Shown: positions 20,469 to 48,045 of the stretch, in pieces
How positions within the stretch are numbered: position 1 is the first letter of the stretch
How the letters are laid out: every line of letters starts with the position of its first letter
Source: Sulfurospirillum sp.
GTDB lineage: Bacteria > Campylobacterota > Campylobacteria > Campylobacterales > Arcobacteraceae
Reading direction: 5' to 3'
Assembly (NCBI GenBank): GCA_030491005.1
Contig: JAKZMJ010000032.1
Location: 186,001-250,000, forward strand
Length of the DNA: 64,000 bases
Notes under the pieces: generated by a model
Database searches by the model: none
Told to the model about the DNA's origin: nothing
The model's input: the letters and a program-made list of their open reading frames with translations, nothing else
Made by a program: the position numbers and the translations under genes

Positions 20469-20477
20469 GGAATAAAA

Positions 20478-23087: not shown

Positions 23088-23953
23088 CTTACTCTAGTTT
23101 TTGAATATTTATGATTGAGTTTGTGTTGAGCATTAATAAGTGGTTTATTTCTATATGCTCGATTGATAACTTTTGAGTTTACATTATTTTTTTGAAGATA
23201 GTCTTCTATCTCTTTTGATTTGTATGCTGAATCAGCATACAATGTAGTATCATCTTCATTGATAAGTTCTTTAATTACTTGTGAATCATGAGTTGATGAG
23301 GGTGTTACAGTATAAGTAGATATTACTTTAGTTTTTTGATCAACTGATATATGATTTTTATATCCAAATTCTCTAGTTTTATACTTGGTAACCCATCTGG
23401 CATCTATATCTTTTTGAGCTAATTTATTTTTATTCTTTCCAAACTCTAAAGGAATAGCACCTTTTTTAATATCAGCATTATCTTGCCTTTTATTTCTTTG
23501 TTTAGGTACTTTGATGAAGCTAGCGTCTACAAGTGTTCCCTCTTTAGCAATAACACCATTAGATAAAAGTTTAGCAGTAAAAATATCAAATAGTTTTTTT
23601 GATAAATCTTTCTCTTTTAGTTCTTCTTTAAATAGCCAAATTGTATTTCTATCAGGTACATTATCACCTATTTGGAGACCTAGAAAATTCATAAAAGATA
23701 ATCTATCTTTGATTTGAAACTCTGTTTGTTCATCCGATAAATTGTAGTATCTTTGAAGTATAATTATTTTGAACATTAAGAGTTTATCATATGGTTTCCT
23801 ACCAGCATTACTTTTTTTATCTTCTTTCATTAATGATTCTTCAATAGGTTGTCTAAATAATTCCCAATCAATAATTTCATTTAACTTTTGTAAAGGTGGT
23901 TGATGCTTTTTAATCTTTTCTAGCTGAAACTCATAATCAAATAATCCTGCCAT
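23088..23953 (-). pseudogene. IS5-like transposase, C-terminus deleted
   Basis: The N-terminal 288 residues belong to an IS5-family transposase. The dimerisation-like start WELFRQPIEESL, the GRKPYDKLLMFKIIILQRYYNLSD region, the catalytic LVDASFI and the second-Asp region LYADSAYKS are present. The sequence breaks after KYSKTRVR, just before the expected catalytic Glu motif (usually R-VEH-F). The frame then runs 12 codons into the neighbouring IS and stops at 23051. Without the Glu region it should be inactive. Confidence 0.88.
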
Positions 23954-24137
23954 AATATACTCACTTTTTATAATAATTTATGTTGTAATTATAGCTAAAT
24001 AGTGGTATCAAATGCTTTAAATAATAGCTTTATAGAGAGTTATTTGTAAATTTATTTGGATTAAATAAAAGACTTATTTTATGATTTTCTAAGTATTTGA
24101 AAATTATGTGATTTTTTGTCTATTTTTAGAGGTGCCC
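23088..24137 (-). mobile_element. Truncated IS5-like element inserted in a CRISPR repeat
   Basis: The 5' end of the element, with outer bases GGGCACCTC (read on the minus strand from 24137), abuts a CRISPR repeat that lacks only its first base. The 3' end has been lost at the junction with the 1493-bp IS at 23087. Between 23954 and 24137 there is only the untranslated end of the element, with no other gene. Confidence 0.82.
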
Positions 24138-24412
24138 TTTAAATACATCATATGTTTCGGTTAAATTAAAGAAAGGAATAATATTATGAAGAATAAAAGA
24201 CATTTAAATACATCATATGTTTCGGTTAAATTGATATCAAGATATACTAATAGATATTCTAAAGAGATTTAAATACATCATATGTTTCGGTTAAATAAAA
24301 ATGACTGAAATAAAAACAAAGGACTAAAAAAATTTAAATACATCATATGTTTCGGTTAAATTTCGGAAAATATAGGCACTTATAGATGGACACTACCATT
24401 TAAATACATCAT
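24138..24412 (-). CRISPR. Inverted CRISPR segment, proximal part
   Basis: The same repeat occurs here in reverse orientation: 24138-24166 (first base missing), 24202-24231, 24267-24296, 24332-24361, and the left half of a fifth repeat at 24398-24412. Spacers are 35-36 nt. The fifth repeat is interrupted by an IS and resumes at 25899. Orientation opposite to both flanking array segments shows that this block was inverted after it was laid down. Confidence 0.96.
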
Positions 24413-25898
24413 GAGCCGACTGCATAATTAAAAAGTACTCATATATCTTATTTTTTCAAATATTTAAAAAAATCCATCTTCAATAAAATTAGATTCAGTC
24501 ATTTTTAGGAGCTTTTTTAGTCTATTAAATCTCTTTAGCTCTATATTATTCATCTAACTACTTATAATCTTTGTCTTATTTGTCTTTGTCCTAATAATCT
24601 AAGATTAGTAGCTATACAGGTAAGGGTAAAATTCATATTATTTCTAACGAGTCCTATAAATTTTGTAGTTGAGCCTTTCATCTGAGTTTTTATATCTGCA
24701 AACCTATGTTCAACTTTAGCTCTAATCTTATGTTTAGGTTTTTCATCTTTTCTTTGCTGCTTAATCTGTTCTTGGCTTAGAGTTTGTTTCTCTTTGAGAC
24801 ATACCATATTTTCTATATTTTCACTTTCTAAAAAAGTATCTATATCTTTTGAGTTATATGCTTTATCAGCATAAAGAGCTTTCATTCCATCTATATCTTT
24901 TACAAATGTTTTTACTGTGTCTATATCGTGAGTATTTGCGAAGGTAGTTTGTTGGGAGATAATAATACCACTTTGCTCATCTACTGCTATATGTACTTTA
25001 TAGCCTTGTGTATATTGTTTTTTTGATGCGTGAAAGCCTATCCTTACTTCACTATCTATTTTATCTTGATGATTATAGCTATCTTCTTCATTCTTTATAA
25101 TAATTTGAGAAGTCTTTATATCTTTAGTATCAATACCTTGTAGTGTATCAAGTTGTGCATTCTTGTATGTCTTGGAGTTATGGGCTTTAGTATTAAGAAT
25201 TCTTTGAATCTTCTTTTTTGAAGGCTTTTTGGATTGAAGCTCTACTTCAAGTTTTATATTTAACTCAGCATTTATTGTTTGAATACCTTTCTTGTCTTCT
25301 TTGTATACTTCTTTAGTCTTATTTTTTATTTGCGTGTTATCACTTCTAATGAGAGTAGCATCAATTAAAACAGATTTTCCTTTTTTAGCTATCAGGTTTT
25401 TACTCTCTAATTGTTTATTTACAGAGTTAAATAATTTATCATAAAGTCGGTTCTTGAGTAGGGAATTTCCAAATCTACAGATTGTACTCTCGTCTGGTAC
25501 ACTATCCTCTAGGCTAAGTCCTACAAATCTAATAAAGAGTAGGTTTACATAGAGTGCATCTTGGGTGGCTTGATCAAAGAGATTGTAATACTTCTGGAGT
25601 AACAGTACTCTAAACATCAGTACATTATCATAAGCAGGTGCTCCAGCTACATTACTTTTAGCAATTCCATTTCTATTTAGTACTGGTCGTAATTTATCAA
25701 AGTCTATAATAGAGTCCAACTCTTTAAGAAATGAATTTACTTTTTCTAATCTTGATGTTACTGCTATATCTGAAAATGTATTGTTTGTATCTTTAAATGC
25801 CATTTTTTACCTCTTCTTAGTGATGTTATTTTAGCTGAAAAGTGCTTTTAATGCCTTTAAATAGGTTGCTTTGTTGGATTATACTGTGCAGTGGTCTC
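24413..25898 (-). mobile_element. Intact IS5-like element (1486 bp) inserted in a CRISPR repeat
   Basis: Imperfect terminal repeats (GAGCCGACTGCA at the left, GAGACCACTGCA read inward from the right) bound the element. The direct duplication ATCAT lies at 24408-24412 and 25899-25903. Removing the element and one ATCAT restores a perfect 30-bp repeat. One transposase gene fills it. Confidence 0.93.
24562..25803 (-). CDS. IS5-family transposase
   Basis: This 413-residue transposase has the IS5 plan: SIIDFDKLRPVL near the N-terminus, GAPAYDNVLMFRVLLLQKYYNL, then VPDESTICRF. The catalytic residues are Asp in VLIDATLIRS, Asp in ALYADKAYNS and Glu in KVEHRFADIKTQM. A Lys-rich insertion lies between the first and second Asp. 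It is complete and probably functional. It is related to, but clearly different from, the truncated transposase at 23088-23953. Confidence 0.9.
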   Translation of the reverse strand: MAFKDTNNTFSDIAVTSRLEKVNSFLKELDSIIDFDKLRPVLNRNGIAKSNVAGAPAYDNVLMFRVLLLQKYYNLFDQATQDALYVNLLFIRFVGLSLEDSVPDESTICRFGNSLLKNRLYDKLFNSVNKQLESKNLIAKKGKSVLIDATLIRSDNTQIKNKTKEVYKEDKKGIQTINAELNIKLEVELQSKKPSKKKIQRILNTKAHNSKTYKNAQLDTLQGIDTKDIKTSQIIIKNEEDSYNHQDKIDSEVRIGFHASKKQYTQGYKVHIAVDEQSGIIISQQTTFANTHDIDTVKTFVKDIDGMKALYADKAYNSKDIDTFLESENIENMVCLKEKQTLSQEQIKQQRKDEKPKHKIRAKVEHRFADIKTQMKGSTTKFIGLVRNNMNFTLTCIATNLRLLGQRQIRQRL

Positions 25899-26027
25899 AT
25901 CATATGTTTCGGTTAAATCTTGGCATAGGATATTTTAAAGTCATACCTAAATTATTTAAATACATCATATGTTTCGGTTAAATACTTATCAAGCTATGCA
26001 AAATAAAACTTTTTATTTATTTAAATA
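25899..26027 (-). CRISPR. Inverted CRISPR segment, distal part
   Basis: This continues the inverted block: the right half of the split repeat (25899-25918 including the duplication), a spacer, a complete reverse repeat at 25954-25983, a 35-nt spacer, and the first 9 bases of another repeat at 26019-26027, cut by the IS3-family element. The first spacer, read on the minus strand, is a diverged version (about two or three differences) of two spacers in the main array at 10723 and 12362, so this block belongs to the same array lineage. Confidence 0.95.
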
Positions 26028-27416
26028 TAATGTCCCCAGATAAAACAACCGATTAATAAAATATTTTTATTCCAATAGATACAATATAAAGATAAGAAAA
26101 GAGGATATTACATTATGAGTAGAAAAAGAACAACATACACAGCAAGTTTTAAAGCAAAATTAGTTTTAGAAGTTTTAGAGGGAACAAAGACATTAAATGA
26201 GATAGCAACACAATAAGAGTAAAGGACAACTTGTGATTAATATCACAAGGCAAACTGTCGAATGTATTACCAAAGAATTTATTAAATTGGAAGAAACAGT
26301 TTTTAGATAATGCAAGTTTAGCATTTGATAAAAGTGCTTTAGTTAAAGAGTATAAAATAGAAATTGAAACACTACAAAAAGATAAAGATAATATGGCAAA
26401 GAAAGTTGGTGAATTAACTTTAGAGAAAGATTTTCTTGAGGGAAAGCTCGTAAGCTTGGTATCATTAAATAAGAGAAAAGAGATGATTGATATCAAGCAT
26501 AAACTATCATTAAATAAGCAATTGAAATTATTAGATATATCTAAAACAGCATATTACTATGAACCTGTAATACCATTTAGTTCTAATGAAGATATGAAGC
26601 TTTTAAATACTATAGATTTAATACACACTAAGCACCCATACTATGGTACTAGAAGGATAGTTAAACTCTTGGCTAGATTGGGTTTAAATGTTGGTAGAAA
26701 ACTGATAAAAACAGCTATGAAATTTATGGGTATAAGAGCATTATATCCTAAGCTTAGAACTACTTTAGCTAATAAAGAACATAAGAAATACCCATACCTT
26801 TTAAAAGAGTTTAAAAATGATAAAAATCAAGTAATCATAGATACTCCAAATAAAGTATGGAGTACAGATATAACTTATATTCGACTAGAGAAAGGCTTTG
26901 TTTATTTGGCTGCTATTATACATTGGAATACTAAGAAGATATTATCATGGAAGTTATCTAATTCAATGGATGTATCCTTGACAACTAGTGTATTAAATGA
27001 AGCATTATCTCTATATCCAAGACCTGAAATAGTAAACACAGACCAAGGTAGCCAATACACTGCAAATGAACATATTAAAATATTAGTAGATAATGATATA
27101 TCTATATCTATGGATGCAAAAGGTAGGAGTATTGACAATATAGTTATTGAGAGATTTTGGAGAACATTAAAATATGAAGATGTATATCCATCTTCATATA
27201 AAGATATCAAGGAGGCAAGAAAAGGAATAGATGAATATATCAATATTTACAATAAAGAAAGATTGCATTCTGCAATAGATTATTTAACACCAGATGAAGC
27301 ATATTATAATTGTTCTAATGATAAATGTTATAATGCTAAAGAAGTGTTACTAAAGGTAGCTTAGAGGTTCGGAATATAAATATATTTAGGATTGGTATTG
27401 ACAAAGAGGGACAGTA
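26028..27416 (+). mobile_element. IS3-family element, complete in extent, orfA broken
   Basis: The ends are TAATGTCCC at the left and GGGACAGTA at the right, so the terminal repeats are TA(A/C)TGTCCC; boundaries could shift by a few bases. The element lies between an inverted repeat fragment and forward-oriented array, and no target duplication is visible. It is the inverted partner of the remnant at 21417-21594. Confidence 0.87.
26115..27364 (+). pseudogene. IS3-family transposase orfA/orfB, orfA interrupted
   Basis: OrfA starts at 26115 (MSRKRTTYTASFKAKLVLE, a helix-turn-helix start typical of IS3 OrfA) and reaches a stop at 26214-26216 after 33 codons. Similarity resumes about 50 bases later in another frame, from LPKNLLNWKKQF at about 26267, and continues as a leucine-zipper-like region. 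The same frame runs through the integrase to 27364. The integrase core is intact: Asp in VWSTDITYI, Asp in IVNTDQGSQYT and Glu in VIERFWRTLKYE. An independent start at 26393 could yield a 323-residue integrase, but loss of the DNA-binding OrfA should prevent normal transposition. Confidence 0.82.
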
Positions 27417-31690: not shown

Positions 31691-32660
31691 TTAATGCCTT
31701 TATTTGTCTATATGTTTTACTTATTTTTTTACAAATAAATTCTATATCTTTTTCTCTAAACTCATTTGTATAAGATAAGCTAATAGCTTGTCTTGATTCA
31801 AGTTCGCTATAACCCATTTCTTGTAAAATTCGTGATGGTTTTAAAAGTCCAAGTGAACACCCCTCCCCATTACTCATAAAAATATTTCCTAAAGCCAATG
31901 TTCTTATTAATTGTCTTGCTTTAATATTTTTTAAAGCAAAGTGCAAAGTATTAGTCAATGTTGTATCTGCTTGTACGAAGAAGAATAAATCATCTTTTAG
32001 ATATTGTTTTAGATATTTTATAAAATAAGATTTATTTGTATATTGAATTTCTTTTAAAAAACTATCATAAATATTTTTTATAGAAACTATGTCCATTTGA
32101 GCTAAACTTTGCTTAGGAAGTAAATTATTGTGTAATATGATACAAGATGTTGCGTATGCTGTTAATTTATATGAATCAAATATAACTATGTCAGAATTTG
32201 AACAATCAAGAGTAGCTGATATATTTGAAATTATTTTTGCTTTTGTTAATTTGGAAACTTTTTGTAAATCAACTTTTACATAAGTATCCATAATATATGA
32301 TGATATAAAAATATAATCTAAATCTTTTTTTATATCATCATACTTTAAGGAACCATCTTTATTTAAAGATATAAAATCAAGTTGCAAGCCTAAGTTTTTA
32401 TATTGATATCCAGCTTGAATAATAGCATCACTTTCGCCTATTGAAATTGCAATTTTTCCATTTAAAATACACATTAAACCTAAAAATGCTTCTTGAGTAA
32501 AACTCATAGTATTTAAATTTTTAAAATTAAATTTATTTTTAAAACTTAAAACTAATTCTTCGATTTGTCTATTATTTTTTAAAGTATAATTAGAATACTC
32601 TTTTAATATATTTATATCTTTTACTACAGCAGGGTATTGTAAAGTATCAAGTTTATACAT
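31683..32660 (-). CDS. NifS-like (class V aminotransferase) protein, divergent
   Basis: The protein has the fold signature of cysteine desulfurases but is short (325 residues; NifS/IscS are about 400). A Lys in IFDSYKLTAYA occupies the PLP-lysine position, although the usual SHK is SYK. The C-terminal part NGEGCSLGLLKPSRILQEMG matches the catalytic-Cys loop and the following PSHVL-AMG region of NifS, and includes a Cys. The usual Asp-Ala-x-Gln PLP motif is not obvious. Its place between modE-like and moeA, in an operon headed by fdhD, suggests it donates sulfur to FdhD, which passes it to the formate dehydrogenase cofactor. That role is inferred. Confidence 0.7.
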   Translation of the reverse strand: MYKLDTLQYPAVVKDINILKEYSNYTLKNNRQIEELVLSFKNKFNFKNLNTMSFTQEAFLGLMCILNGKIAISIGESDAIIQAGYQYKNLGLQLDFISLNKDGSLKYDDIKKDLDYIFISSYIMDTYVKVDLQKVSKLTKAKIISNISATLDCSNSDIVIFDSYKLTAYATSCIILHNNLLPKQSLAQMDIVSIKNIYDSFLKEIQYTNKSYFIKYLKQYLKDDLFFFVQADTTLTNTLHFALKNIKARQLIRTLALGNIFMSNGEGCSLGLLKPSRILQEMGYSELESRQAISLSYTNEFREKDIEFICKKISKTYRQIKALND

Positions 32661-33024
32661 CTTTATCCCTTGTAGCTTTCATAAGTGCAGTATTACTTAA
32701 AAATAATTCATTAAATCTCTTTTGTGCAAAAAGATTAATATCTTCTTTTAAAATTTTATAGTTTTTTATAATTTGTTTAGCTTTAGGAGTTAAAACTGTT
32801 CCTCCAATTTTTCTACCTTTATTACTAATGACGATATCATCTTCTATGTAATTTTGTAATATTTGTACATGAGACCAAGCTTTTTTATAATTTATTCCCA
32901 TTATAGAAGAAGCCTTTGCAATTGAACCAGTTTTGTCAATATATTCTAATATTTGTGTTTTTCCACCTCCAAATATTAAATTATTATCTTCATCTTCTAT
33001 CCAAGTTTTAACTTTTATTTGCAT
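32653..33024 (-). CDS. ModE-like winged-helix regulator
   Basis: The 123-residue protein matches the N-terminal DNA-binding domain of ModE: ILEYIDKTGSIAKASSIMGINYKKAWSHVQ is the characteristic helix-turn-helix, followed by the wing SNKGRKIGGTVLTPKAKQII. It lacks the C-terminal molybdate-binding (TOBE) domains, so if it senses metal it does so in another way or with another protein. It overlaps genes on both sides. It probably regulates this molybdenum/tungsten operon, possibly its own. Confidence 0.85.
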   Translation of the reverse strand: MQIKVKTWIEDEDNNLIFGGGKTQILEYIDKTGSIAKASSIMGINYKKAWSHVQILQNYIEDDIVISNKGRKIGGTVLTPKAKQIIKNYKILKEDINLFAQKRFNELFLSNTALMKATRDKDV

Positions 33025-33406
33025 GAGATAACTTCTCCTTAAAACATCCTAATTGACAATATATAACATCAATATTACTTTTTTTAACTGTTGAACCAAC
33101 TCTTCTTAATGAGGTTTTCCTAGCTTCATTCCATAAGGTTTTACATTTTAATTTATATTCATTATTTGAATTTTTTCTTATATCATCATAAATCTTGTCT
33201 TCAAAGTCTTTAAAATCAATATTCCCAAAAACTCCTAATTCGCAAGAAGTTATTTTAATATTAATACTTTCACAAATCTTTGCCATTTTTATAACTTCAA
33301 CATTCATTTTTTTTGCCACTTTAAAAGCTTTTAAACATGGTAATTTATCCTCATCATCAAGTTCATCTAAGATATATTTTTTATTTGAAATGCTTATATC
33401 AGACAT
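33008..33406 (-). CDS. Conserved small protein of formate dehydrogenase clusters
   Basis: This is a 132-residue soluble protein whose function I do not recognise. The central and C-terminal parts carry two similar Cys motifs, SCELGVFG and YCQLGCF, with further Cys residues at LPCLKAF, AKICES and KLKCKTLW. The N-terminal half, DDEDKLPCLKAFKVAKKMNVEVIKMAKICE, looks helical, like a small DNA- or protein-binding domain. It overlaps fdhD by 8 bp and the modE-like gene by 17 bp, so it is translated with them. A link to cofactor or sulfur handling is suggested only by context. Confidence 0.7.
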   Translation of the reverse strand: MSDISISNKKYILDELDDEDKLPCLKAFKVAKKMNVEVIKMAKICESINIKITSCELGVFGNIDFKDFEDKIYDDIRKNSNNEYKLKCKTLWNEARKTSLRRVGSTVKKSNIDVIYCQLGCFKEKLSHANKS

Positions 33407-34187
33407 CTATTCTTCCTTGATGTGTATAGATATTCATTCTTTTACCTCTGGCAAATCCTATTAATGTGATACCGTGTTTATGTGCTATTTGTACACCTAG
33501 GTATGTAGGTGCAGTTCTTGATATGATTATAGGGATTTTATGCATTACTGATTTTATTACCATTTCAGAACTTAGGCGTCCTGATACAAAAAGAAGTGAC
33601 TTAGTGGTATCTAAACCTTGTATTTTACACTTGCCTATTGCTTTATCAATAGCATTATGTCGTCCAATATCTTCAGCTGTAATAGTTTGCCCATCAAGCA
33701 AGTAAATCATCGCTTTATGCACACAACCTGTTAAATTATAAAGTTCGCTTTCTTTATAAAATATTTTAATTTCCGAAGATATAGTATTTGCTTTAATCAA
33801 AAAAGAAGTTTGATTAAAAGCTACTTTAATATTACCATCAATATTACCAGTAATTCCACCACCACAACCACTAGTTAGTGTTTTTTCTTTATATAAGTTT
33901 GCAATTGAGTCTTTATTTATTTTAGCATCAACATAAACTTTTAAACCATCTTCACTTATATGGATTTTTTCTATATCTTTCATAGAAGAAATAACATTTT
34001 CACTCATCAAAAATCCAATTGCATGAGCATCTTGATCTTTTGGTATACACATCATTGATATTGTTTTCTGACCATTTAAATACAAATTTAAGCGTACCTC
34101 ATCAATAGTTACATCTTCAAATTCTTTAACTTCATTTCCTATAAGTTTGTCTATTATTACTGTTTTTAAATATTTGTCATTTTCCAT
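33399..34187 (-). CDS. fdhD: Formate dehydrogenase sulfurtransferase FdhD
   Basis: FdhD carries sulfur from a cysteine desulfurase to the molybdenum/tungsten cofactor of formate dehydrogenase. The 262-residue protein has the family motifs: MSENVI, the loop TSGCGGG with Cys108, TGCVHKA and the strongly conserved AEDIGRHNAIDK. The E. coli enzyme has two Cys in the loop (C-x2-C), whereas only one is present here, as in a subset of FdhD proteins. It is the first gene of the cofactor operon, with its own promoter upstream. Confidence 0.95.
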   Translation of the reverse strand: MENDKYLKTVIIDKLIGNEVKEFEDVTIDEVRLNLYLNGQKTISMMCIPKDQDAHAIGFLMSENVISSMKDIEKIHISEDGLKVYVDAKINKDSIANLYKEKTLTSGCGGGITGNIDGNIKVAFNQTSFLIKANTISSEIKIFYKESELYNLTGCVHKAMIYLLDGQTITAEDIGRHNAIDKAIGKCKIQGLDTTKSLLFVSGRLSSEMVIKSVMHKIPIIISRTAPTYLGVQIAHKHGITLIGFARGKRMNIYTHQGRIDV

Positions 34188-34275: not shown

Positions 34276-35229
34276 TTATGCTAAATCTTCTTCTAAAACA
34301 TCTGGTCTTAGTTGTTCTAAATATTCTTTTGCTAATCTTCCTTTTATTAGTCCAGGAATATAGCCTTTAACAGATACAACATAAGAATAAACTGTTTCAA
34401 ATACAAAAAATGAGATAATCGCAGAACCCATAAAGTGTACAAAAATCATTAGTCTTTTCAATTGTATTGTTTGTGCATAAGTAGATGAATCAGGAAACAT
34501 ATTCCATAAAATAAATCCACTTAAAACCAATAAAAAACCAAAAGCTACATACATATAATAATTAATTCTATCCATATGCTTGTATTTACCTCTTAAGAAA
34601 ATCTTATTCCATATTTTTGCACTTGGTCTTATAAAATATTTATGATCCTTAAAAGCTATTATGGTCATAATAAACCATATAGGTATCCAAGAAAGTCCTA
34701 TCATTTCGTGACTTGCTCTCATAAACCTTGCAAGTTCACCTCCATTTGTAATGTTCCCAAATGTTATAGAAAAACCAGTGATAAATAAATAAATCATAAT
34801 TATAATATTGATTAATAAAACAAATCTTTGAAAAATAGAATATACTTCAACTGTATCTTCTGCTTTAGTAATTTTTGCTTGTTTTCTTCCTTTTGTAATA
34901 ATAAACATACTTAAAAATAAAAAAAACTCAACAATAAATACTATAGGTAAAAGTTCTTGTCTTTCTTCAAATGCTCTAATAAACTCAGGTGCAATCGCAC
35001 TATAATTTGGACCAAATAATGTAACTTCCATTTGTTCATGTCTACTTAAACTTTCAAAAGCTACAACTTGACCATTTATATTACCTTGTAAAATTTGCAT
35101 TATAAACTGATATACATAATCTATATTAGCAATACTTGCTAAAAAGAAATACCAATATGTTAGAAGAATGAATAAAAAACCTATTATAAAATAGGCTTTA
35201 TATTCGTTTAAAAAACTTTTATTTTCCAT
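34276..35229 (-). CDS. fdhI: Formate dehydrogenase cytochrome b subunit (gamma)
   Basis: This inner-membrane subunit (317 residues) carries electrons from FdhB to the quinone pool. It has about four or five membrane segments: one near residue 10-30, one near 100-120, then the di-heme b core with His in RASHEMIGLSWIP and in MIFVHFMGSAIISF. The family is FdnI/FdoI-like cytochrome b556. The ATG at 35229 (MENKSF) overlaps the end of fdhB by 11 bp and is preceded by GGGAT. An upstream in-frame ATG at 35268 lies deep inside fdhB and is less likely. Confidence 0.9.
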   Translation of the reverse strand: MENKSFLNEYKAYFIIGFLFILLTYWYFFLASIANIDYVYQFIMQILQGNINGQVVAFESLSRHEQMEVTLFGPNYSAIAPEFIRAFEERQELLPIVFIVEFFLFLSMFIITKGRKQAKITKAEDTVEVYSIFQRFVLLINIIIMIYLFITGFSITFGNITNGGELARFMRASHEMIGLSWIPIWFIMTIIAFKDHKYFIRPSAKIWNKIFLRGKYKHMDRINYYMYVAFGFLLVLSGFILWNMFPDSSTYAQTIQLKRLMIFVHFMGSAIISFFVFETVYSYVVSVKGYIPGLIKGRLAKEYLEQLRPDVLEEDLA

Positions 35230-35833
35230 AAGCTTTATCCCAACCATAAGGTGCACTTTGCACACCATGACCAGCAGAAACTACTCTTTGTCTAAAAATA
35301 TTCGATACATCTTCCGCATCGCCTACAAGTAAAGCTTTTGTTGAACACATAGCAGCACAAACAGGAACTTTTCCTTCTGCTATTCTATTTTGTCCATACA
35401 ATTGTCTTTCATGTGCACTATTTGTATCTTCAGGACCTCCTGCACACATAGTACATTTATCCATAACACCTTTTGTTCCAAATGCCCCATTTGAAGGAAA
35501 TTGTGGGGCTCCAAAAGGACAGGCATATAAACAATAAGAACATCCTATACAGATATCCTTATCATGTAAAACAATGCCATCTTCTCTTATATAAAAACAA
35601 TCCACTGGACAAACTTCTTCGCAAGGTGCATCTGTACAGTGCATACAAGCAATTGATAAAGAAAACTCTTTTCCTTGAATTCCTTCATTTATAGTTACTA
35701 CTTTTCTCCTTGAGATTTCAACAGGTAATTCATGTGCTTCTGCACAAGCAACTGAACAACCATCACAGTGAATACATCTATTTTCATCACAAAAAAATTT
35801 CATTCTTGAAAAATCTACATTATTATTACTCAT
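35219..35833 (-). CDS. fdhB: Formate dehydrogenase iron-sulfur subunit (beta)
   Basis: The 204-residue subunit holds four [4Fe-4S] clusters. The Cys groups are CIHCDGCSVAC (about residue 17), CMHCTDAPCEEVC, CIGCSYCLYAC and CTMC with a later CAAMC. It links the catalytic subunit FdhA to the membrane cytochrome FdhI. It has no signal of its own, so it probably crosses the membrane as a complex with the Tat signal of FdhA. It starts 9 bp after fdhA. Confidence 0.95.
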   Translation of the reverse strand: MSNNNVDFSRMKFFCDENRCIHCDGCSVACAEAHELPVEISRRKVVTINEGIQGKEFSLSIACMHCTDAPCEEVCPVDCFYIREDGIVLHDKDICIGCSYCLYACPFGAPQFPSNGAFGTKGVMDKCTMCAGGPEDTNSAHERQLYGQNRIAEGKVPVCAAMCSTKALLVGDAEDVSNIFRQRVVSAGHGVQSAPYGWDKAYGK

Positions 35834-35842
35834 CTTGTTCTC

Positions 35843-38674
35843 CTATGCTTTTTGAATTCGACATAATCCACCTTTTGTCTCAGGTATTTGGGTAACAATG
35901 TCATAACCATAATTTGTAACCGTATTGGCGCTCTCCCCTAAAGCATGAGGTACAGTTCCACTTGGATATTTATCTTTTAATTCCACACCTTCTAATACAC
36001 CAGCAAAATGAATAGGAATAAAAATTCTATCAGAACTAACAGAATATGAATATTTTGCTTTTACTTTGATTTTTGTTCCTTGGGGTGAATGAATCCACAT
36101 CATAGCTCCATCTCTAATATCATGCTTGGATGCTAAATTAGGATTAATATCACAAAACATTTCAGGAGTTAGTTTTGCAAGATATTTTGACGATCTACTT
36201 TCCATTCCTGCACCATTCATATTAACAAGTCTACCAGTTACTAAATTAATAGGAAAATCTTTTGCCCAATCTTGTTTTGTTTGTTCAGATATATATCTAG
36301 TATCAACCCTATAATGATTTTTTTTATCTTCAAAACTAGGATAATCTTTTACTAAATCAGTTCTTGGTGAATGTAAAGGTTCACGATGTAAAGGAATTGG
36401 ATCTGCAAATGTCCATACTTTAGCTCTTGCTTTTGCATTTCCATAAGGAGCCATACCAGCTTCCATACATTTTTGTGCAATTATATTAGAAGTATCAACT
36501 TTCCAATTTTTTCCAATTGCTTTTTTCTCTTTATCACTTAGCTTAATACCTAAAACTTTTTCAATATTTTTCTTATTAATTTCAGGATAACCATCTTTAT
36601 TTGAAGAACCTTTAGGAGCTGAGCCAACTCCTGCTAATAAATCAACTCCATCATGTTCTAAGCCAAATCTATTTCTAAATCCCATTCCACCTTCAGATAC
36701 TTTTCTATTAATATTATATAAAACAGGAGAACCACTATGAGTTTCCGTCCAACAAGGCCATGGTAAACCATAATATTCACCTTTCATCTTGCCATAACCT
36801 CTGCTTGATACTTCATCAAACATATGCCAATTTTTTTGATGCTTTTTCAATCTTTTAGCAGTCCAACCAGTTAGTCCAATAGTTTTTATAATTCTTGCTA
36901 TTTCATCAGTAGCATCTTCTGGCCACTTATAAGATTTTTTATTTTTAGCTACTGTCATTCCAGCAGTAAGTTCATCATAAAACCCAAGTTTTTTAGCTAA
37001 TAAAAACATAATATCTTGATCAGCTTTTGACTCATACATAGGTTTAATGACTTCACTTCTCCATTGAGCTGCTCTATTTGTTGCTGTTACAGAACCACTT
37101 GTTTCAAATTGAGTAGCAGCTGGTAAAATATACACATCATCTTGTTTATCTGTTAAAATTGCACCTTCATTTACAAAAGGATCACAAAAAACAGCAATAT
37201 CAAGATTGTCTAACGCTTCTTTTACTTTTTTAGTTTGTGCGGTTGATGTTATACCATTACCCATTACAAACAATGCTTTTAATCTTGTATTAGCATTATA
37301 AATCTTATCTTCACCAGGGTTTCCACCTAAAACACCAGCCCACCACCTAGAAAGTGTAAAGCCTTTTTTATTCATCCACGATGGATCTTTAAATCTTCCT
37401 TTTAGCCACTTATAATCAACACCCCAAGATTTTGCAAAATATTTCCATGAACCATCACTTAATCCATAATATCCAGGTAAAGTGTGAGATAAACAACACA
37501 TATCAGTTGCACCTTGAACATTATCATGACCTCTTAAAATATTACACCCTCCACCTTCAACACCCATATTACCAAGTGCTAATTGTAAAATTGGAGCCAT
37601 TCTTGTATTTGAAGAACCATTTGAATGCTGAGTTAAACCCATAGCCCAAATTAGTGTTCCAGGAGTATTAGAAGCATAATGTTTTGTAATTTGTACAATT
37701 AAATCTGCATCAACTCCTGTCACATCAGCTACTCTTTCAATTGGCCAATTCTTAGCTTCTTTCATGATGTCTTCCATTCCATAAACTCTATCTTTTATGA
37801 AATTTTCATCATGCCAAGCATTTTTAAAAATAATATTTAGCATTCCATACATAAATGCAATATCAGTACCTGGTCTAATTTGTGCATAATAATCTGCTTT
37901 TGCAGCAGTTTTAGTAAATCTTGGGTCTACAACAATTATTTTTGCATTATTTCTCTCTTTTGCTTTTAAAAAATGTTGAAAACCAACAGGATGATTAACT
38001 GCTGGATTTGCTCCAAATATAATAATAGCTTTTGCATTTTGAATATCACCTAAAGAATTTGTCATAGCACCATAACCCCATGTATTTGCCACACCGGCAA
38101 CTGTTGAGCTATGTCAAATTCTAGCTTGGTGATCTATATTATTAGTTCCATACATAGCAGCAAATTTTCTAAAATAATATGATTGCTCTGTACCAAACTT
38201 AGCTGAGCCTAGAAACATAGTAGAATCAGGTCCTGCTGTTTGTCTTAATTTTTCTAATTTAGTTCCTATTTCTTCAATTGCATTTTCCCAAGAAATTCTA
38301 TGCCATTTTCCATTTTTCTTAACCATTGGATGTTTTAATCTAACTTCTGAACGAATTACATTTATAACATCGGCACCTTTACAACAATGTCCTCCAAGTG
38401 AAACTGGATGATCTTGTGCAACTTCTTGTCTAACCCAAACACCATTTTGAACTTCTGCAATTACTCCACAACCTACTGAACATGCTGTACAAATCGTTTT
38501 TACCAATTTTGAATTGGGAAATGGATTTTTAATCTCACTTTTTGTAGCATTTCTAGTTACTTTTGTACTTGCAAAAGACCTTGTTACTCCAAATGCACTA
38601 GCAAGCGCTGCCATTTTCATAAATGAGCGTCGTCCTACTTTAGCATTTAGAGCCTCATATGTATTAATTGACAT
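35843..38674 (-). CDS. fdhA: Formate dehydrogenase catalytic subunit, selenoprotein
   Basis: The enzyme oxidises formate to CO2 with a molybdenum or tungsten bis-MGD cofactor. The gene reads through an in-frame TGA at 38114-38116 as selenocysteine at residue 187, giving about 943 residues. The sequence around it, QARI-Sec-HSSTVAGVANTWG, is the hallmark of FdnG-type enzymes. The N-terminus has a twin-arginine signal (RRSFMKMAALASA), so the enzyme faces the periplasm. A cluster motif CTACSVGC with later CCKGAD binds [4Fe-4S]. The C-terminal domain (HSPQGTKIKVKA, cofactor binding) is complete. Ordinary gene finders would split it into two genes at the TGA. Confidence 0.97.
38086..38100 (-). promoter_or_regulatory. 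SECIS hairpin for selenocysteine insertion in fdhA
   Basis: Thirteen bases downstream of the TGA on the minus strand, TTGCC and GGCAA form a 5-bp stem with the loop GGTGT. Bacterial SECIS elements sit in this position, and the E. coli fdhF element has a comparable GGUCU loop recognised by SelB. The hairpin lies within the coding sequence. Confidence 0.75.
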
Positions 38675-39013: not shown

Positions 39014-39775
39014 TTAAACTCCATCTTCTATATCATAAGCAATATCATGTTTTATATTCTCATTATCTAATTGTTTTAATTGCTTATTTTTAAATCTTCT
39101 TTCTTTTTCTGCATCTGAGATTATTTCAATTGGTTTTTGTTCTTGTATTTGATCTTTTTTATTAGGTTTTGATACTTCTAAATAAAGTCTTTCAAATTCT
39201 ATAAAAGAATGTAAAATAATCATAAGTTCTTTATAAATCACAGAATCATTATGTTCGTATATATCTTTTGCAAATTCATCTATAAAATTATTTAAAATCT
39301 CAGAAAAGATACAATGAACAGTATTTTCATATTCACTTTCGTCTTTGGATACCAAATCTACTAAATTAGCCATTAAGGAAAAAATAAAACCTACAGAATC
39401 TTCATATTCAAAATATAATTTTTCATTTCGTCTTATTTTAGTTTTTGCAAGAAATTGAATCATCTCAACTCTTTTTTTCCCTGATTCAACACCTTCATCA
39501 TAAAAAGATGCAGTTTGTCTGATATTTTTTGAAAGAGGTGAATGAAATAAATTATCAAATTCTTCTATAAGTTTTATATTAGATAAAGGATCTAATAATT
39601 TTGAAAGTTTTTCCATAGCTATTTGTGAACTTGAATCTAATGAATTGCTTTTAAATAAATTAACCAAACTTATTAATTCAAAATAATTATGTGTATCCTT
39701 ACTTAAAATAAAAAAATTAGCAAATAAATTATAATAAAGAGCTCTTGATTTGTTGATTTTATTTTTATCTTGCAT
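39014..39775 (-). CDS. TorD/DmsD-like molybdoenzyme chaperone
   Basis: The 253-residue, mostly helical protein resembles the TorD family, which binds Tat signals of molybdoenzymes and holds them until the cofactor is in place. Matching features are the N-terminal ALYYNLFANFFIL helix, EEFDNLFHSP in the position of the conserved E-x-x-LF region, and ASFYDEG with a later helical domain. The C-terminus (about 45 residues) is charged and probably unstructured. The start at 39775 has AAGGA upstream and overlaps the preceding gene by 11 bp. It is expected to serve FdhA. Confidence 0.8.
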   Translation of the reverse strand: MQDKNKINKSRALYYNLFANFFILSKDTHNYFELISLVNLFKSNSLDSSSQIAMEKLSKLLDPLSNIKLIEEFDNLFHSPLSKNIRQTASFYDEGVESGKKRVEMIQFLAKTKIRRNEKLYFEYEDSVGFIFSLMANLVDLVSKDESEYENTVHCIFSEILNNFIDEFAKDIYEHNDSVIYKELMIILHSFIEFERLYLEVSKPNKKDQIQEQKPIEIISDAEKERRFKNKQLKQLDNENIKHDIAYDIEDGV

Positions 39776-41462
39776 TAAGAATTCCTTTGTTTTTTTCATC
39801 AAAATAATTTTGCATCATTATTTTAGGTTTACAATTTGCACAACAATATAAACTTTTTTCCTTGATCTTATCACCTTTAAACAAGGGAAGCATAATTGAA
39901 GCTATTTTATCAATAGCTTTTGTTGTCGCAAACTCTTCTCCACACTCAAGACAAGCAAACAGTGTATCTTTGGCTAGTATATTTTCTTTAAACCACATAG
40001 GTTCTAATTTTATAACATCTCTTTGTATTGTTAAGCAATCACTCTCAGGACAAGAAACTTCACAATAACCACAAGAAGTACATAAAGATGGATTAAGTCT
40101 TAAGGTATTATCAGAAGCATCTGCTTGTAGGGCATTTACATTACAAGCTCCTACACATACCAGACATAAAGTACAAGTACTTTCATTTACTTTTACTAAA
40201 CCATAGTGTACATACTCCCCCGTTGTAACCTCACCTAAATTGTCATTTTGCACAATATTAGATAATCTAATGGCAAAAATTTCTCTTTTTCTTGAATTGC
40301 TTTCATTAAAAGTAAATCTTGAATTAGGAATAAAAGAAACTTTTTTAATAGCTTGTCTTAGTTCTTCTTCATTCATAGCAAGTAAAATAGCATCTAGCCC
40401 ATATTTTTTTTGATAAATTTGATTTAAGATACTTATTGCATCTTTTGTACCTTGTGATAGTAAGTCTGTGTAAAGTATACTTTGAGCTCCTGATTCTTGC
40501 ACAATAGTTAAAAGATCACATTCATCTAAAAATTGTTCACCATCAATAGCAAAAGGAAGTATATTTTCTTTTATTTGTATATCTAAATTATCTATTTGCA
40601 TTTTATTTGGCACTATTAAAGCAATATGTCCATTTAAAAATTTTGACATTTCATAAATAGCTTCTTTGTTACTAGGAGTATACTCTAAAGCACCAGAAGG
40701 ACAAACTGAAATACAAGCCCCACAACCTGTGCAATTTATTTGGGAAAAAGCCAGTGTTTTACTAGTATCATCTTTGCTAATTGCAACTGTAGGGCATACT
40801 TCTTCACACTTAGAGCATATAACTTCTCTTCTTTCATGGTATTGACAAATATTTTTATCGTATATTGTATATTTTTTATACTCATATTGCTTAATATTGG
40901 CTCTTAGTGTATTTATAACATCTTCAAGTGAAGTATCATTTGGGTCTAATGTTCCACTTTGTTTTAATCCCATCAGTTTTGCATCAAACCATACTATTTG
41001 ATCAACAAAAATATCAACATCTTTGTGTTCATCATCAACTGTAACAATTAAATTTCCAATATGACCTGTAATGTTTTTTATAATACTTTCATCAATATGG
41101 AATAAATCAAATTCTTCAAGTATTGAATTATTTAAAAAGTCTTTTTTTTCTTCGTCATTACATACAAGCAAAACTTTATTTTGAACTTCTTGTGAATAAG
41201 TAATATCTTTTGCTAAATCAAATCTTAAGGCATTTAATTCATATAACTTTTCAACATTCTTAATTTTTGCAGAATCACTATCTTTAGAATTTTTAATATA
41301 AAATCCTATTTCATTTGCTATAACTTCAGCATCAATACTCTTCGTATTTGATACTAAGTAATCATAACTTTCTATTGTTGATAAATTATTGCTTACTAGA
41401 ATTTTATCAGAAAGAGGAAAATCAAGTTTTTTGTCATCATAATATATAAATTCTTGCATCAT
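39765..41462 (-). CDS. Polyferredoxin of the formate dehydrogenase operon
   Basis: This 565-residue cytoplasmic-type iron-sulfur protein has no signal peptide. It carries a Cys-rich CSKCEEVCP, a ferredoxin motif CTGCGACISVCP (about residue 243), and in the C-terminal half CTLCLVCVGAC and CTSCGYCEVSCP. A pair FACLECG and CCANC near the end could bind zinc or another cluster. Such proteins are the first gene of many Campylobacterota fdh operons. Their exact role, perhaps electron transfer or assembly, is not established. It starts the operon, with AAAGG upstream of an ATGATG start. Confidence 0.82.
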   Translation of the reverse strand: MMQEFIYYDDKKLDFPLSDKILVSNNLSTIESYDYLVSNTKSIDAEVIANEIGFYIKNSKDSDSAKIKNVEKLYELNALRFDLAKDITYSQEVQNKVLLVCNDEEKKDFLNNSILEEFDLFHIDESIIKNITGHIGNLIVTVDDEHKDVDIFVDQIVWFDAKLMGLKQSGTLDPNDTSLEDVINTLRANIKQYEYKKYTIYDKNICQYHERREVICSKCEEVCPTVAISKDDTSKTLAFSQINCTGCGACISVCPSGALEYTPSNKEAIYEMSKFLNGHIALIVPNKMQIDNLDIQIKENILPFAIDGEQFLDECDLLTIVQESGAQSILYTDLLSQGTKDAISILNQIYQKKYGLDAILLAMNEEELRQAIKKVSFIPNSRFTFNESNSRKREIFAIRLSNIVQNDNLGEVTTGEYVHYGLVKVNESTCTLCLVCVGACNVNALQADASDNTLRLNPSLCTSCGYCEVSCPESDCLTIQRDVIKLEPMWFKENILAKDTLFACLECGEEFATTKAIDKIASIMLPLFKGDKIKEKSLYCCANCKPKIMMQNYFDEKNKGILNAR

Positions 41463-41470
41463 TTGCCTTT

Positions 41471-41541
41471 GGTAAAATTTACTTTACCATTTTATAGCTA
41501 TATAGCTTATACTTTTATTAAAAGGTAAACTATTCTTTACC
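41471..41541. promoter_or_regulatory. Paired 18-bp palindromic operators in the fdh/sensor divergent promoter region
   Basis: The sequence GGTAAA-N6-TTTACC occurs twice, at 41471-41488 and 41524-41541. The centres are 53 bp apart, about five helical turns, so a dimer bound to each would face the same side of the DNA. The left copy lies just upstream of the fdh operon start codon (41462) and next to a TATAAA-like -10 on the minus strand. The right copy lies upstream of a TATAAT-like -10 at about 41563 for the sensor operon. One regulator could control both operons. Confidence 0.7.
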
Positions 41542-41589
41542 TAAGAAATATAAAATATTGTGATATAATATATTTTATAAAGGATTATT

Positions 41590-42732
41590 TTGTTTAAAAA
41601 AATACTTTTTATAATGTTTGTTCTATCTTCTATTTTGTATCTCATATTTAGAAATAAAATATACAATGATAAGGTTTTATTATTTGGCTCTTCTTTACCA
41701 AAAACTGGGATTATGAAAGCTTGGGGGAATAGTGTTAATCACGGTACTAATGCATATTTTAAATATGTTAATGAAAATAATATATTAACAAAGAACAAAA
41801 AAATTAAACTTGTAGATTATGATGATAAATATGAACCTGAGTTAACATATGATAATATAAAAAAATTAATTTATAAAGATAAAATATTTGCTCTTTATGG
41901 TTTTGTAGGAACACCTACTGTAAAATATATTTTTCCTTTATTAGAAAATACAAATATACCATTTATTGCAGCTTTTACAGGAGCTGATTTTTTACGAAAT
42001 ACTTCAAAACCTAATATAGTAAACTTTAGAAGCTCTTACAAAGAAGAACTTTATAAAATCGTTTCTTACCTTAAAAATAAAAAAAATATTAGTAAATTTG
42101 CAATTTTTTATCAAAATGATGATTATGGTAAAGAAGGATATGTATCATTAGTAAAAACTCTAAATAAACAAAGTTTAAAATTAATAGCCCAAGGAACCTA
42201 TAAAAGAAATACTTTATCAATAACACATGCTTTTGCTGAAATTAAAAATGCTAAACCTGAAGCTATTATCTTAGTTGGAGCATACAAAGCAAATGCCTTA
42301 TTTATAAAAAAAGCAAAACAAAATAAAAACTTAAAAAATGCTATCTTTTCTATTTTATCATTTGGTGATGCAAATGAGATGGTTAAAGAACTAAATTATA
42401 ATACTTCTAATGTCTTATTTTCACAAGTTGTACCAAGCTACAATAATAATAAAATAAAAGTAGTTCAAGAATATCAAAGATTAATGAGCAAGTATTATCC
42501 AAATGAATCCTTAGGATTTATCTCCTTAGAGTCTTTTTTAGTAGCAAAAACTATTGTAAATGCTTTAAATAATATTGATGGAAATATTACAAGAGAAAAC
42601 TTCTTAGAAAAAATTAAAACTCTATCTTCTACTCAATTAAATGGAATTCACACTACTTATAAAAATACACAACTTCTAAATAAGGTATATTTATTTGAAT
42701 ACAAAAATAATGATTTTAAAGAAATTTATTAA
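41590..42732 (+). CDS. Periplasmic ligand-binding protein (LivK-like) of a sensory operon
   Basis: The 380-residue protein has an N-terminal hydrophobic segment (about residues 3-20) acting as a signal or anchor, then a type I periplasmic binding fold as in branched-chain amino-acid receptors: the start VLLFGSSLPKTG, the GFVGTPTVKYIFPLLE loop, FAIFYQNDDYGKEGY and ILVGAYKANALFIKKA. No transporter genes are nearby. Its stop overlaps the start of a histidine kinase (TAATG), so it probably senses a ligand for that kinase rather than supplying a transporter. Confidence 0.82.
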   Translation: MFKKILFIMFVLSSILYLIFRNKIYNDKVLLFGSSLPKTGIMKAWGNSVNHGTNAYFKYVNENNILTKNKKIKLVDYDDKYEPELTYDNIKKLIYKDKIFALYGFVGTPTVKYIFPLLENTNIPFIAAFTGADFLRNTSKPNIVNFRSSYKEELYKIVSYLKNKKNISKFAIFYQNDDYGKEGYVSLVKTLNKQSLKLIAQGTYKRNTLSITHAFAEIKNAKPEAIILVGAYKANALFIKKAKQNKNLKNAIFSILSFGDANEMVKELNYNTSNVLFSQVVPSYNNNKIKVVQEYQRLMSKYYPNESLGFISLESFLVAKTIVNALNNIDGNITRENFLEKIKTLSSTQLNGIHTTYKNTQLLNKVYLFEYKNNDFKEIY

Positions 42733-44318
42733 TGTTTATTAAAAAAATATTTTATTTTTTAAATAAAATACCATTTTCATTAAAAACATCAATACTGATT
42801 TTTATTATTGCAGGAGGAATGATATGTATAATTATTTTATCTCAAATTTCTATTTATGCTTTAAAAAATGATTTTGATATTTTATTTGAAAAAAGAACAA
42901 AACCCATTATACAAATTGAAACAATCAAAGATATCTACAAGATAAATATATTTGATACTTTATACGATATCCAAAATAAAAATTTAACCTTAAAACAATC
43001 AAAAGTTGTGATATCCTTAGGTCAACAACTAATAAAAAAAAATTGGTTAAAATATCAAACAACAAATAAAAGTTCTAAATACAAATCATCACAAATTAGT
43101 AAAAGTATAAAATATATATTTGGTTTGAAGAAACATCAAACTAATGTAATAGTGCAAATAAATAATATAAAAACTATCAATACAAAAATGCTTGAAATTA
43201 ATGTACACATAAATAAAATCATTAATTATCTCAAACAAGATGATTTTATAAGAGCAACTAAATTAATTAATCAAATATATTTCAAAATAAATTCTATTAA
43301 TATTTATCTTACTAATTTAACAACTTATGATTTAGATATGGCAATAATAGAAAAAAATGAAACACAAAAAATATTTAATTCTTTAGTTATGATTTTAAAT
43401 ATATCAATTATTTTTGTATTTTTATTTTCTATAATATTATCAATGATAATTATTCATAATTTCAGAGTTCTTCATTTTGACCTTAAAGTTGCAGTTAAAG
43501 AAAAAACAAAAGAATTATTAGAAATAAATGATTATCTTCAAATTAAAATATCAAAAGAAGTTCAACAAAATAGAAAAAAAGATTTAATTATGTTTCAACA
43601 AGCAAGATTAGCATCTTTAGGAGAAATGATAGCAAATATTGCTCATCAATGGAGGCAACCTTTAGGATCTTTGATGATGATTATTCAAGGTATTCAAAGT
43701 AAAATGCAGTTGAAAAAATTAAGTGAAGATTATGTAAATAAAAAAGTAGAAGATGCTCTTTTATTAGGCAATAATATGTCTGAAACTCTTGATGATTTTC
43801 AAAACTTTTTTAAACCAAATAAAGACAAATCAGTATTTAATTTAAAACAATGCCTAGAAGATTCTTTTGAATTATCAAAATATTTTTTAGAACAAGAAAA
43901 AATTCATATTTCATTAAATATAATTGATGATGTAGAAATTTATGGATTTAATAATGAACTCTCACATGTTTTTTTAAATTTTATAAGTAATTCAAAAGAT
44001 GCACTAAAAAATAAAACAAATAAAAAAGTTATCGAAATAATAGTTAAAAAAACAAAAGATAAAATAAAAATTAATATTTTTGATAATGGTGGGGGGATAA
44101 AAGAAGAAGCATTAAGTCATATTTTTGAGCCATATTATACAACTAAGTATAAAAGTGACGGTATAGGACTTGGTTTATATATGTCTAAGCAAATTATTGA
44201 AAAACATATGAATGGAAGTATTACTTGTAAGAATATTTATTATAAAATAAACAAAGGCAAATCTGAAAATTGTAGTTTGTTTATAATAAGCATACCATAT
44301 TACCAAGGACATCAATGA
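42732..44318 (+). CDS. Membrane sensor histidine kinase
   Basis: The 528-residue kinase has two membrane segments (about 20-42 and 218-240) enclosing a periplasmic domain of about 175 residues with no domain I recognise. A coiled stretch leads to the H-box LASLGEMIANIAHQWRQPL with His305. The ATP-binding domain follows (N-box FISNSKDAL, DNGGGI, GIGLGLYMSK). It probably receives a signal through the binding protein encoded just upstream. It overlaps the response regulator gene by 4 bp. Confidence 0.92.
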   Translation: MFIKKIFYFLNKIPFSLKTSILIFIIAGGMICIIILSQISIYALKNDFDILFEKRTKPIIQIETIKDIYKINIFDTLYDIQNKNLTLKQSKVVISLGQQLIKKNWLKYQTTNKSSKYKSSQISKSIKYIFGLKKHQTNVIVQINNIKTINTKMLEINVHINKIINYLKQDDFIRATKLINQIYFKINSINIYLTNLTTYDLDMAIIEKNETQKIFNSLVMILNISIIFVFLFSIILSMIIIHNFRVLHFDLKVAVKEKTKELLEINDYLQIKISKEVQQNRKKDLIMFQQARLASLGEMIANIAHQWRQPLGSLMMIIQGIQSKMQLKKLSEDYVNKKVEDALLLGNNMSETLDDFQNFFKPNKDKSVFNLKQCLEDSFELSKYFLEQEKIHISLNIIDDVEIYGFNNELSHVFLNFISNSKDALKNKTNKKVIEIIVKKTKDKIKINIFDNGGGIKEEALSHIFEPYYTTKYKSDGIGLGLYMSKQIIEKHMNGSITCKNIYYKINKGKSENCSLFIISIPYYQGHQ

Positions 44319-44977
44319 TAGCTAAAAATCTTAATATTCTAAATAATTTTAATATCTTATATTTAGAAGATGATAAATCTTTATTAATTCATACAAAAGA
44401 TATTTTAGATGATTTTTTTAAAAATGTTTTTGCAGTTCAAAATTGTAAAGATGCTATGACAATAATAGAAAATGAAAAAATTGATGTCATAATATCTGAC
44501 ATATTATTAGAAAATGAAAATGGAATTGATTTTCTTAGACTTTTAAAAAGTAATGATATATTAATTCCTAGTATCTTAACAACTGCACATACAGATACTA
44601 AGTATTTACTAGATGCCATTAAATTAAAAGTTGAAAATTATATTATCAAACCTATTAATATAAAAGAATTACTTGATAGTTTATATGATATTTTGCTTCC
44701 AATTATACAAGATAAAGAAATTAAGAAAAGCTCAAATATTATAAAAACAATTTCTGCTATTACAAATAGTAAGCAAGTAGAAGTTATAAAATATATCATC
44801 TCAAACTTAGATGAAAAAAATGAACTACTTTCATCTTATAGTGAGATTATGTCTAATATTCCTATTTCTAAACCTACTTTAATAAAACTCTTTAGACAAT
44901 TAGCTTCTCAAAAGATTTTATTAAAGATATCTCATAAAAAATATAAATTTAATGAAAAAGTATTAAATATCGTGTAA
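44315..44977 (+). CDS. Response regulator with helical C-terminal output domain
   Basis: The receiver domain covers about residues 12-125, with acidic LEDD at 17-20, phospho-acceptor Asp62 (VIISDILLE), Thr in LTTAHTD and Lys in YIIKPI. The C-terminal 90 residues look like a winged helix (PISKPTLIKLFRQLASQKIL) and probably bind DNA. The gene is translated with the kinase (ATGA). It is the obvious candidate to bind the GGTAAA-N6-TTTACC sites beside the fdh operon. Its stop lies 2 bp from that of the converging DUF502 gene. Confidence 0.88.
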   Translation: MIAKNLNILNNFNILYLEDDKSLLIHTKDILDDFFKNVFAVQNCKDAMTIIENEKIDVIISDILLENENGIDFLRLLKSNDILIPSILTTAHTDTKYLLDAIKLKVENYIIKPINIKELLDSLYDILLPIIQDKEIKKSSNIIKTISAITNSKQVEVIKYIISNLDEKNELLSSYSEIMSNIPISKPTLIKLFRQLASQKILLKISHKKYKFNEKVLNIV

Positions 44978-46552: not shown

Positions 46553-48045
46553 GAGCTACTTGCAAATTCAATCACAATCAAATATATAATTCTTAATAGT
46601 AACTATTTTAAGCTTTAAAAAAATAGTTATTATTTCTAACTTGCATAATTTACAATATATTTACCAAATTTATTAAAAAATCACATTTTTTCTCCATTCC
46701 TTATGGTTAAATTGTAAAATTCAGTATTTTTATATAAATTTCTATCAATGGTCATGTAATAAGTTTTAAACTTTGATGTATACAAATAGATAAAATTCCA
46801 AATGCTAAAACGCAAGCTACCTTATTTGCCCCTTGATAGTATATTTTATCACATCCAAAGTCATCTTTTAAGTATTTATTTACTCGCTCTACCATACTTC
46901 TTTGCTTGTAGTGATGTTTATCTGATGCTTGAGTCAAATTTAAATATTCAAATTTTTCTTTTTCCTCTTTTGCTAAAGCTATTTTTTCTTTTAGCACTTT
47001 AGAGTTTTTAGGATTTATATCTATGATTGGTTTATGATTTAACTCTTCAGAATACTCTGCAATAATATCACTATCATATCCAGCATCAAGTAAATCATGA
47101 AGATACATTACTCTTTTGCTAGTTTCATTTATAAGTGGAAGTGCTACAGAACTATCATGAACATTTGCACCACTATAAAATGCAACTACTGGTATATCTC
47201 CATCAACAACACTAATATGAAGTTTACCACCTATCCAAACTTCTCTATTACCTTTTGAATTTTGTTTAATACCAACTCCACATGATGTTGATACAAGTGA
47301 TAACATATCATTAGTAGTTTTCATATCTTTTTGAAGTTCAAGAATCTTTGGTTTTATAGCTTCTCTTTTCTCACCTTTTTTAGGTCTTCCAACCTTATTT
47401 TTTGCTTTCTCTTTTTTCTCAACTTTTACAGGTTTTTCCCTAAGTGGTATTTTTGTAGCATCACTTGCATTGTACATAAATATAGTATCTGACAAATACT
47501 CTTCTATGAATTTTTGATGAGTTTTCTCAGCTATTTTCATATCACTAAGTTGTTCAAACACTCTACTAAATTTAGATTCACTAGGAATATCTATTTTATA
47601 TCTCCATCCACATAATACTCGCAATATTCTATCCCTATGCAGTCTATGAATTAAATCTCTTGTTGTTTGTATATTATAAACTGATTTAGCAATAAATGCC
47701 CTTGCTATTTCTTCTCTATCTTTTGGAGTGTTTGTAATTGTTACAATTGTAACATGCTTTTCTATTTGGGCAAAATCTAATATTTTTATTAATTTTTCTT
47801 CTTTAGTGCTTAGTGTTCCTAGTTGTTCTTTTATCTCAGGAAATAAACAATTTTCATGGTTTATAATCCTAAGCCACATTTTTGAAAGATTTGAAGATAA
47901 TTTTGGTATAATATTTTTCATAAGTTGAATCTCTTTTCTGTTAAATTTTAGGATATAAAATTATAACTTATTTGAAATTTGATTCAACTTTTTTTACAAA
48001 TAAAAACCTAAATTATGAACTTATTTGCTAATTTGCAAGTGGCTC
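46553..48045 (-). mobile_element. 1493-bp IS, copy 2
   Basis: It has the same length and ends as copy 1 at 21595-23087, in opposite orientation. Its left end reads GAGCTACTTGCAAATT (one change). A 4-bp target duplication TAGT flanks it (46549-46552 and 48046-48049). It interrupts the gene at 45841-48084. Confidence 0.94.
46752..47921 (-). CDS. DDE transposase of the 1493-bp IS, copy 2
   Basis: The predicted 389-residue product is the same as that of the copy at 21719-22888; the one coding difference I found is synonymous (GTG-to-GCG region near the C-terminus reads the same amino acid). DDE motifs are NASDATKIP, LLDAGYDSD and MVERVNKYL. Intact and probably active. Confidence 0.88.
   Translation of the reverse strand: MKNIIPKLSSNLSKMWLRIINHENCLFPEIKEQLGTLSTKEEKLIKILDFAQIEKHVTIVTITNTPKDREEIARAFIAKSVYNIQTTRDLIHRLHRDRILRVLCGWRYKIDIPSESKFSRVFEQLSDMKIAEKTHQKFIEEYLSDTIFMYNASDATKIPLREKPVKVEKKEKAKNKVGRPKKGEKREAIKPKILELQKDMKTTNDMLSLVSTSCGVGIKQNSKGNREVWIGGKLHISVVDGDIPVVAFYSGANVHDSSVALPLINETSKRVMYLHDLLDAGYDSDIIAEYSEELNHKPIIDINPKNSKVLKEKIALAKEEKEKFEYLNLTQASDKHHYKQRSMVERVNKYLKDDFGCDKIYYQGANKVACVLAFGILSICIHQSLKLIT

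Follow-up and report, generated by a model that had tools for sequence, protein, structure and literature searches.

Paired palindromes around a formate dehydrogenase promoter of Campylobacterales as predicted operators of a neighboring response regulator

In systems of the TorT-TorS-TorR and TtrSR type, the gene for a periplasmic binding protein stands beside those for a kinase and a response regulator, next to a molybdoenzyme operon. The locus described here lies in a 64,000-nucleotide stretch of a Sulfurospirillum sp. genome (contig JAKZMJ010000032.1 of GCA_030491005.1, positions 186,001 to 250,000), which we call the window. It shares this layout, in that a binding protein, a kinase, and a response regulator are encoded together beside a molybdoenzyme operon, that of formate dehydrogenase (fdh). 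Its binding protein is of the Peripla_BP_6 type, in contrast to TorT-TorS-TorR and TtrSR-type systems. Moreover, TorR is an OmpR-type regulator, whereas the output domain here is RepL-like, and a Pfam search of the response regulator did not find the OmpR-type DNA-binding domain (Trans_reg_C). BumSR of Campylobacter jejuni is likewise a two-component system of the Campylobacterota, tied to organic acid signals; the 2024 BumS paper mentions no inverted repeat, palindrome, or DNA-binding domain. The promoter resembles those of HP1043 (HsrA) and CosR in Helicobacter and Campylobacter, which carry the same element immediately upstream of the -10 box. The published HP1043/HsrA activator site has the consensus TTTAAG-N5-TTTAAG and occupies -26 to -42 from the transcription start (PMC5253667, PMC8345958). 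The difference is that the palindromes considered below would be bound by a second regulator, whose operators frame the predicted HsrA/CosR site.

The sensor operon of the window consists of the following genes.

41590-42732, plus strand: periplasmic binding protein with an N-terminal signal/anchor, putative sensor input (Peripla_BP_6, PF13458, 140 bits)
42732-44318, plus strand: membrane histidine kinase (HATPase_c; HisKA below its cut-off)
44315-44977, plus strand: response regulator with receiver and RepL-like winged-helix output domains (PF00072 and PF05732), predicted binder of sites 1 and 2

Among solved structures, the nearest relative of the binding protein, which is similar to proteins of the Leu/Ile/Val type, is 4kv7. 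In the response regulator, the phosphorylation residues D62 (phospho-Asp) and K112 are invariant in 35 sequences, and the RepL match of the output domain lies just above its cut-off (20.7 versus 20.3 bits). An AlphaFold2 model of this protein is confident (pLDDT 92.6); in a fold search with the model the receiver domain dominated, and the output domain was not matched decisively. The fdh operon runs in the opposite direction and, with its neighbors, contains the following.

39765-41462, minus strand: polyferredoxin-like 4Fe-4S protein, first gene of the fdh operon (Pfam Fer4 domains)
39014-39802, minus strand: TorD/NarJ-type chaperone (PF02613)
35843-38674, minus strand: formate dehydrogenase alpha subunit (fdhA), in two ORFs (38114-38674 and 35843-38092; TIGR01591 on both pieces)
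35219-35833, minus strand: formate dehydrogenase FDH3 beta subunit (fdhB; NF038355, 329 bits, cut-off 240)
34276-35268, minus strand: formate dehydrogenase cytochrome b (gamma) subunit (fdhC; PF01292)
33399-34187, minus strand: FdhD (PF02634)
32653-33024, minus strand: small ModE-like winged-helix gene without molybdate-binding domains, within the fdh/moeA/mod cluster

A gene for a short twin-arginine-type protein is listed between the TorD-like chaperone and fdhA, and moeA- and mod-like genes complete the minus-strand cluster beyond the ModE-like gene. The two fdhA ORFs are split by an in-frame TGA, presumed to be a selenocysteine codon, and SECIS_3 matches at 38061-38119 (E 5e-6, 39 bits, below the gathering score); this combination makes fdhA probably a selenoprotein. 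The mod/fdh/sensor block is flanked by two identical transposase genes, each encoding 389 aa and facing opposite ways (21719-22888 and 46752-47921), and further transposases lie around 18946-27364.

An earlier note on this DNA had described two copies of GGTAAA-N6-TTTACC, 53 bp apart, between the fdh and sensor operons, one downstream and the other upstream of the likely fdh -10 box. The sequence bears this out: both copies are exact, their start-to-start distance is 53 bp, and both lie between the polyferredoxin start (41462, minus strand) and the binding-protein start (41590, plus strand), with the -10 hexamer at 41494-41489 between them. The elements of this intergenic region are as follows, the fdh transcription start being predicted from the -10 alone.

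41471-41488, no strand assigned: site 1, exact palindrome GGTAAAATTTACTTTACC, directly after the fdh -10 and covering the predicted fdh transcription start
41489-41494, minus strand: predicted fdh -10, TAAAAT, matching a conserved TAnAAT that follows the direct repeat by 11 bp and adjoins site 1
41506-41522, minus strand: direct repeat TTTAAT-AAAAG-TATAAG, predicted HsrA/CosR-type activator site of the fdh promoter (10/12 match)
41524-41541, no strand assigned: site 2, exact palindrome GGTAAACTATTCTTTACC, 1 bp upstream of the direct repeat
41564-41569, plus strand: predicted extended -10 (TGaTATAAT) of the binding protein-kinase-regulator operon, from the sequence

Across the 2.69-Mb genome, the exact palindrome occurs nowhere outside these two copies. 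Since base composition predicts about 0.2-0.3 exact copies per genome (our own arithmetic), two copies within 53 bp are not a product of chance. When at most one mismatch was allowed, the genome contained 21 palindrome sites versus 14 for a reversed control pattern. Because only two exact copies exist, the exact-copy scan of the window's own genome did not find a wider regulon.

The direct repeat between the palindromes, which is absent from the earlier note, gives the promoter a regular anatomy. It ends 11 bp before the -10 in the window and is aligned in relatives; the 11-bp gap recurs in nearly all regulator-positive loci and corresponds to about -24 to -40 from the start. Relative to the start of the -10 in regulator-positive fdh promoters, the repeat occupies -28 to -12, site 1 begins at +6 to +9 in most, and site 2, where kept, begins at -46 to -48, its equivalents being found in other Arcobacteraceae-like loci and in one further family (f9). 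In an analysis anchored on site 1, the repeat appeared at one fixed offset, with a mean score of 8.21/12 versus a background of 4.17 (28 promoters). The genome also encodes a close ortholog of solved HsrA/CosR-type regulators (8uvx, 2hqr), and we predict that the TTTAAG-N5-TTTAAG element is an activator site of this type. The spacing between site 2 and the extended -10 of the sensor operon is not kept in relatives.

We then compared the locus across 249 genomes of the order Campylobacterales, 88 of which contain relatives of the response regulator and 94 polyferredoxin orthologs. Among 40 regulator loci retrieved for comparison, most keep the divergent layout, across many families, and most have the palindrome just before the fdh operon, so the motif is conserved in relatives that share the arrangement. 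For a presence/absence comparison, we counted a palindrome if it scored 10/12 or better in the 150 bp preceding the first fdh gene, a score that shuffled sequence reaches in 0.6% of cases per promoter. Such a palindrome was present at 38 of 42 fdh promoters in regulator-positive genomes and at 0 of 19 in regulator-negative ones. The Fisher p value of 3e-12 for this table takes no account of shared ancestry among the sampled genomes and thus overstates the association; independent losses of the regulator are few, in about three clades. The negatives comprise 17 genomes of one Campylobacter-like family, whose fdh promoters are without the motif because the family lacks the sensor system, together with one regulator-negative genome from the window's own family (G187), likewise without a palindrome, and G015. 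The earlier note had considered the neighboring response regulator a good candidate to bind both palindromes, and by presence and absence it is the best one. Because in relatives the palindromes are found only where the sensor system exists, they are very probably its docking sites for turning formate use on and off.

Individual loci vary around this pattern. Two distant regulator-positive loci (L084, L085) have a half site only, another (L079) scores 9/12, and family f9 has site 2 without site 1. In G168, the regulator locus has 56% GC and lies on a different contig from fdh, and an exact, AT-rich palindrome precedes the same fdh gene. Where the fdh operon is split (L056, L057, L093, L094), an exact copy of the palindrome lies next to a -10. 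A scan of genome contigs with the first fdh protein gave no confirmed loci. One regulator-positive genome (locus L080) is without the fdh polyferredoxin; its sensor operon directly follows a moaA-like gene, and there is no palindrome.

A search of the 249 genomes for the palindrome with an adjacent -10 returned 37 hits versus 3 for the reversed control. Six of the 37 are chance matches within coding sequence of one family, and a few others are not near fdh. Three hits (L182, L183, L188) come from genomes of the window's family that have more than one fdh operon; each precedes a second or third such operon, with an exact palindrome next to the -10. We discarded the palindrome-like sequences of family f15 (L189-L192) as nonregulatory, as they lie inside a 5-formyltetrahydrofolate cyclo-ligase-like coding sequence. 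At one locus (L184, site at 3327), an exact palindrome with the -10 pattern lies 174 bp before a YeeE/YedE-like transporter gene and a TusA-like gene; this site may concern selenium or sulfur supply, or may be chance. Other hits to the -10 pattern, near genes for a PhnD-like binding protein (L185), an undecaprenyl-phosphatase-like protein (L186), and a porin-like protein (L187), are unproven or chance. At two paralogous regulator loci (L121, L122), the local binding-protein gene is preceded by AGTAAA-N6-TTTACT, which suggests that the regulator family shares a recognition core. An apparent paralog site at L107 was dropped because its spacer is N7 instead of N6.

These observations led us to consider how the regulator might act on the fdh promoter. 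Judging from the sequence, both palindromes are probably operators of the adjacent response regulator, which would bind each as a symmetric dimer and repress the fdh operon. Repression is the likeliest action because site 1 adjoins the -10 and extends over the transcription start predicted from it. Regulator bound there, directly behind the -10, would block initiation, and regulator bound at site 2, at the upstream edge of the direct repeat, would reinforce this effect by shutting out or enclosing the HsrA/CosR-type activator and polymerase. A periplasmic signal, acting through the binding protein and the kinase, would set the phosphorylation of the regulator and so relieve or impose the block. 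The parts of this operator model that we infer are the binding itself, its dimer symmetry, its repressive sign, how phosphorylation acts, and which ligand is sensed.

The sign of control is where the strongest alternative lies. The arrangement had been thought suited to combined activation and repression, of which repression at site 1 is suggested by its position, while activation by the regulator itself would be the less likely part. From site 2, the same regulator could in principle act as an activator of fdh and perhaps also of the sensor operon, with site 1 only limiting or fine-tuning expression. Measured to its center, site 2 is positioned like an activator site with respect to both promoters, at about -50 for the predicted fdh start and about -43.5 for that of the sensor operon, and an opposite or mixed sign is possible because family f9 retains site 2 alone, in such a position. 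We nonetheless judge this alternative unlikely, if worth keeping in mind: site 1 is the copy kept in most lineages (28 non-redundant promoters, of which 9 have a second site), the HsrA/CosR-type repeat already fills the space before the fdh -10, and the distance from site 2 to the start of the sensor gene varies among relatives. The spacing of the sites bears on a further proposal from the earlier note, DNA looping between copies five helical turns from each other, which here would mean a short loop for repression. Second palindromes do occur only at 52-55 bp, near 52.5 bp, and 9 are observed where shuffles predict 0.02. However, the interval is filled by the 17-bp activator site, the 11-bp gap, and the -10 box, and these promoter elements account for the 53-bp distance; in addition, most promoters have a single site, one lineage has the upstream copy only, the range from 52 to 55-56 bp covers about 0.4 turn, and DNA this short would need bending help. 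Looping is therefore not needed, twin copies being present in only 9 of the 28 promoters, and we consider it improbable.

Other readings assign the palindromes to a different molecule. The product of the clustered ModE-like gene, a winged-helix protein, might bind the sites, given that molybdate supply matters for fdh. The motif, however, tracks the response regulator in presence and absence, and G015 (locus L092) has a ModE-like gene (59% identity) beside fdh, without the response regulator and without the palindrome; on this ground we rejected ModE as the binder and regard any regulator other than the adjacent one as very improbable. Still harder to credit is an RNA hairpin or riboswitch in the fdh leader, even though site 1 lies 9-26 nt before the start codon, beside the ribosome-binding site. 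The predicted transcription start falls inside the palindrome, site 2 sits upstream of the promoter, and deviations among relatives are mostly one-sided rather than compensated; given this position and no Rfam match at site 1, this explanation was rejected as well.

Formate is a main electron donor of the Campylobacterota. In its passages on fdh, a review of how respiration is regulated across the phylum gives no transcription regulator dedicated to formate dehydrogenase and, for C. jejuni, cites post-transcriptional control by FdhTU (PMC6682613). Targeted searches of the open-access literature turned up no account of this motif or of a link between the regulator and fdh. Two-component control of a divergent operon is the known part of the arrangement, and the RepL-like output domain together with the framed HsrA/CosR-type site is the uncommon part. 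We would put about equal weight for and against the broader proposal of an order-wide, so far undescribed fdh switch of the Campylobacterales, in which a binding protein-kinase pair drives a RepL-like regulator that clamps an HsrA/CosR-activated promoter from both sides. The palindrome is a directly searchable motif, and a type of response regulator with a RepL-like output domain gains a candidate DNA target. The locus thus brings candidates for the sensor, the regulator, the operator sequence, and the activator site together at a single conserved promoter.
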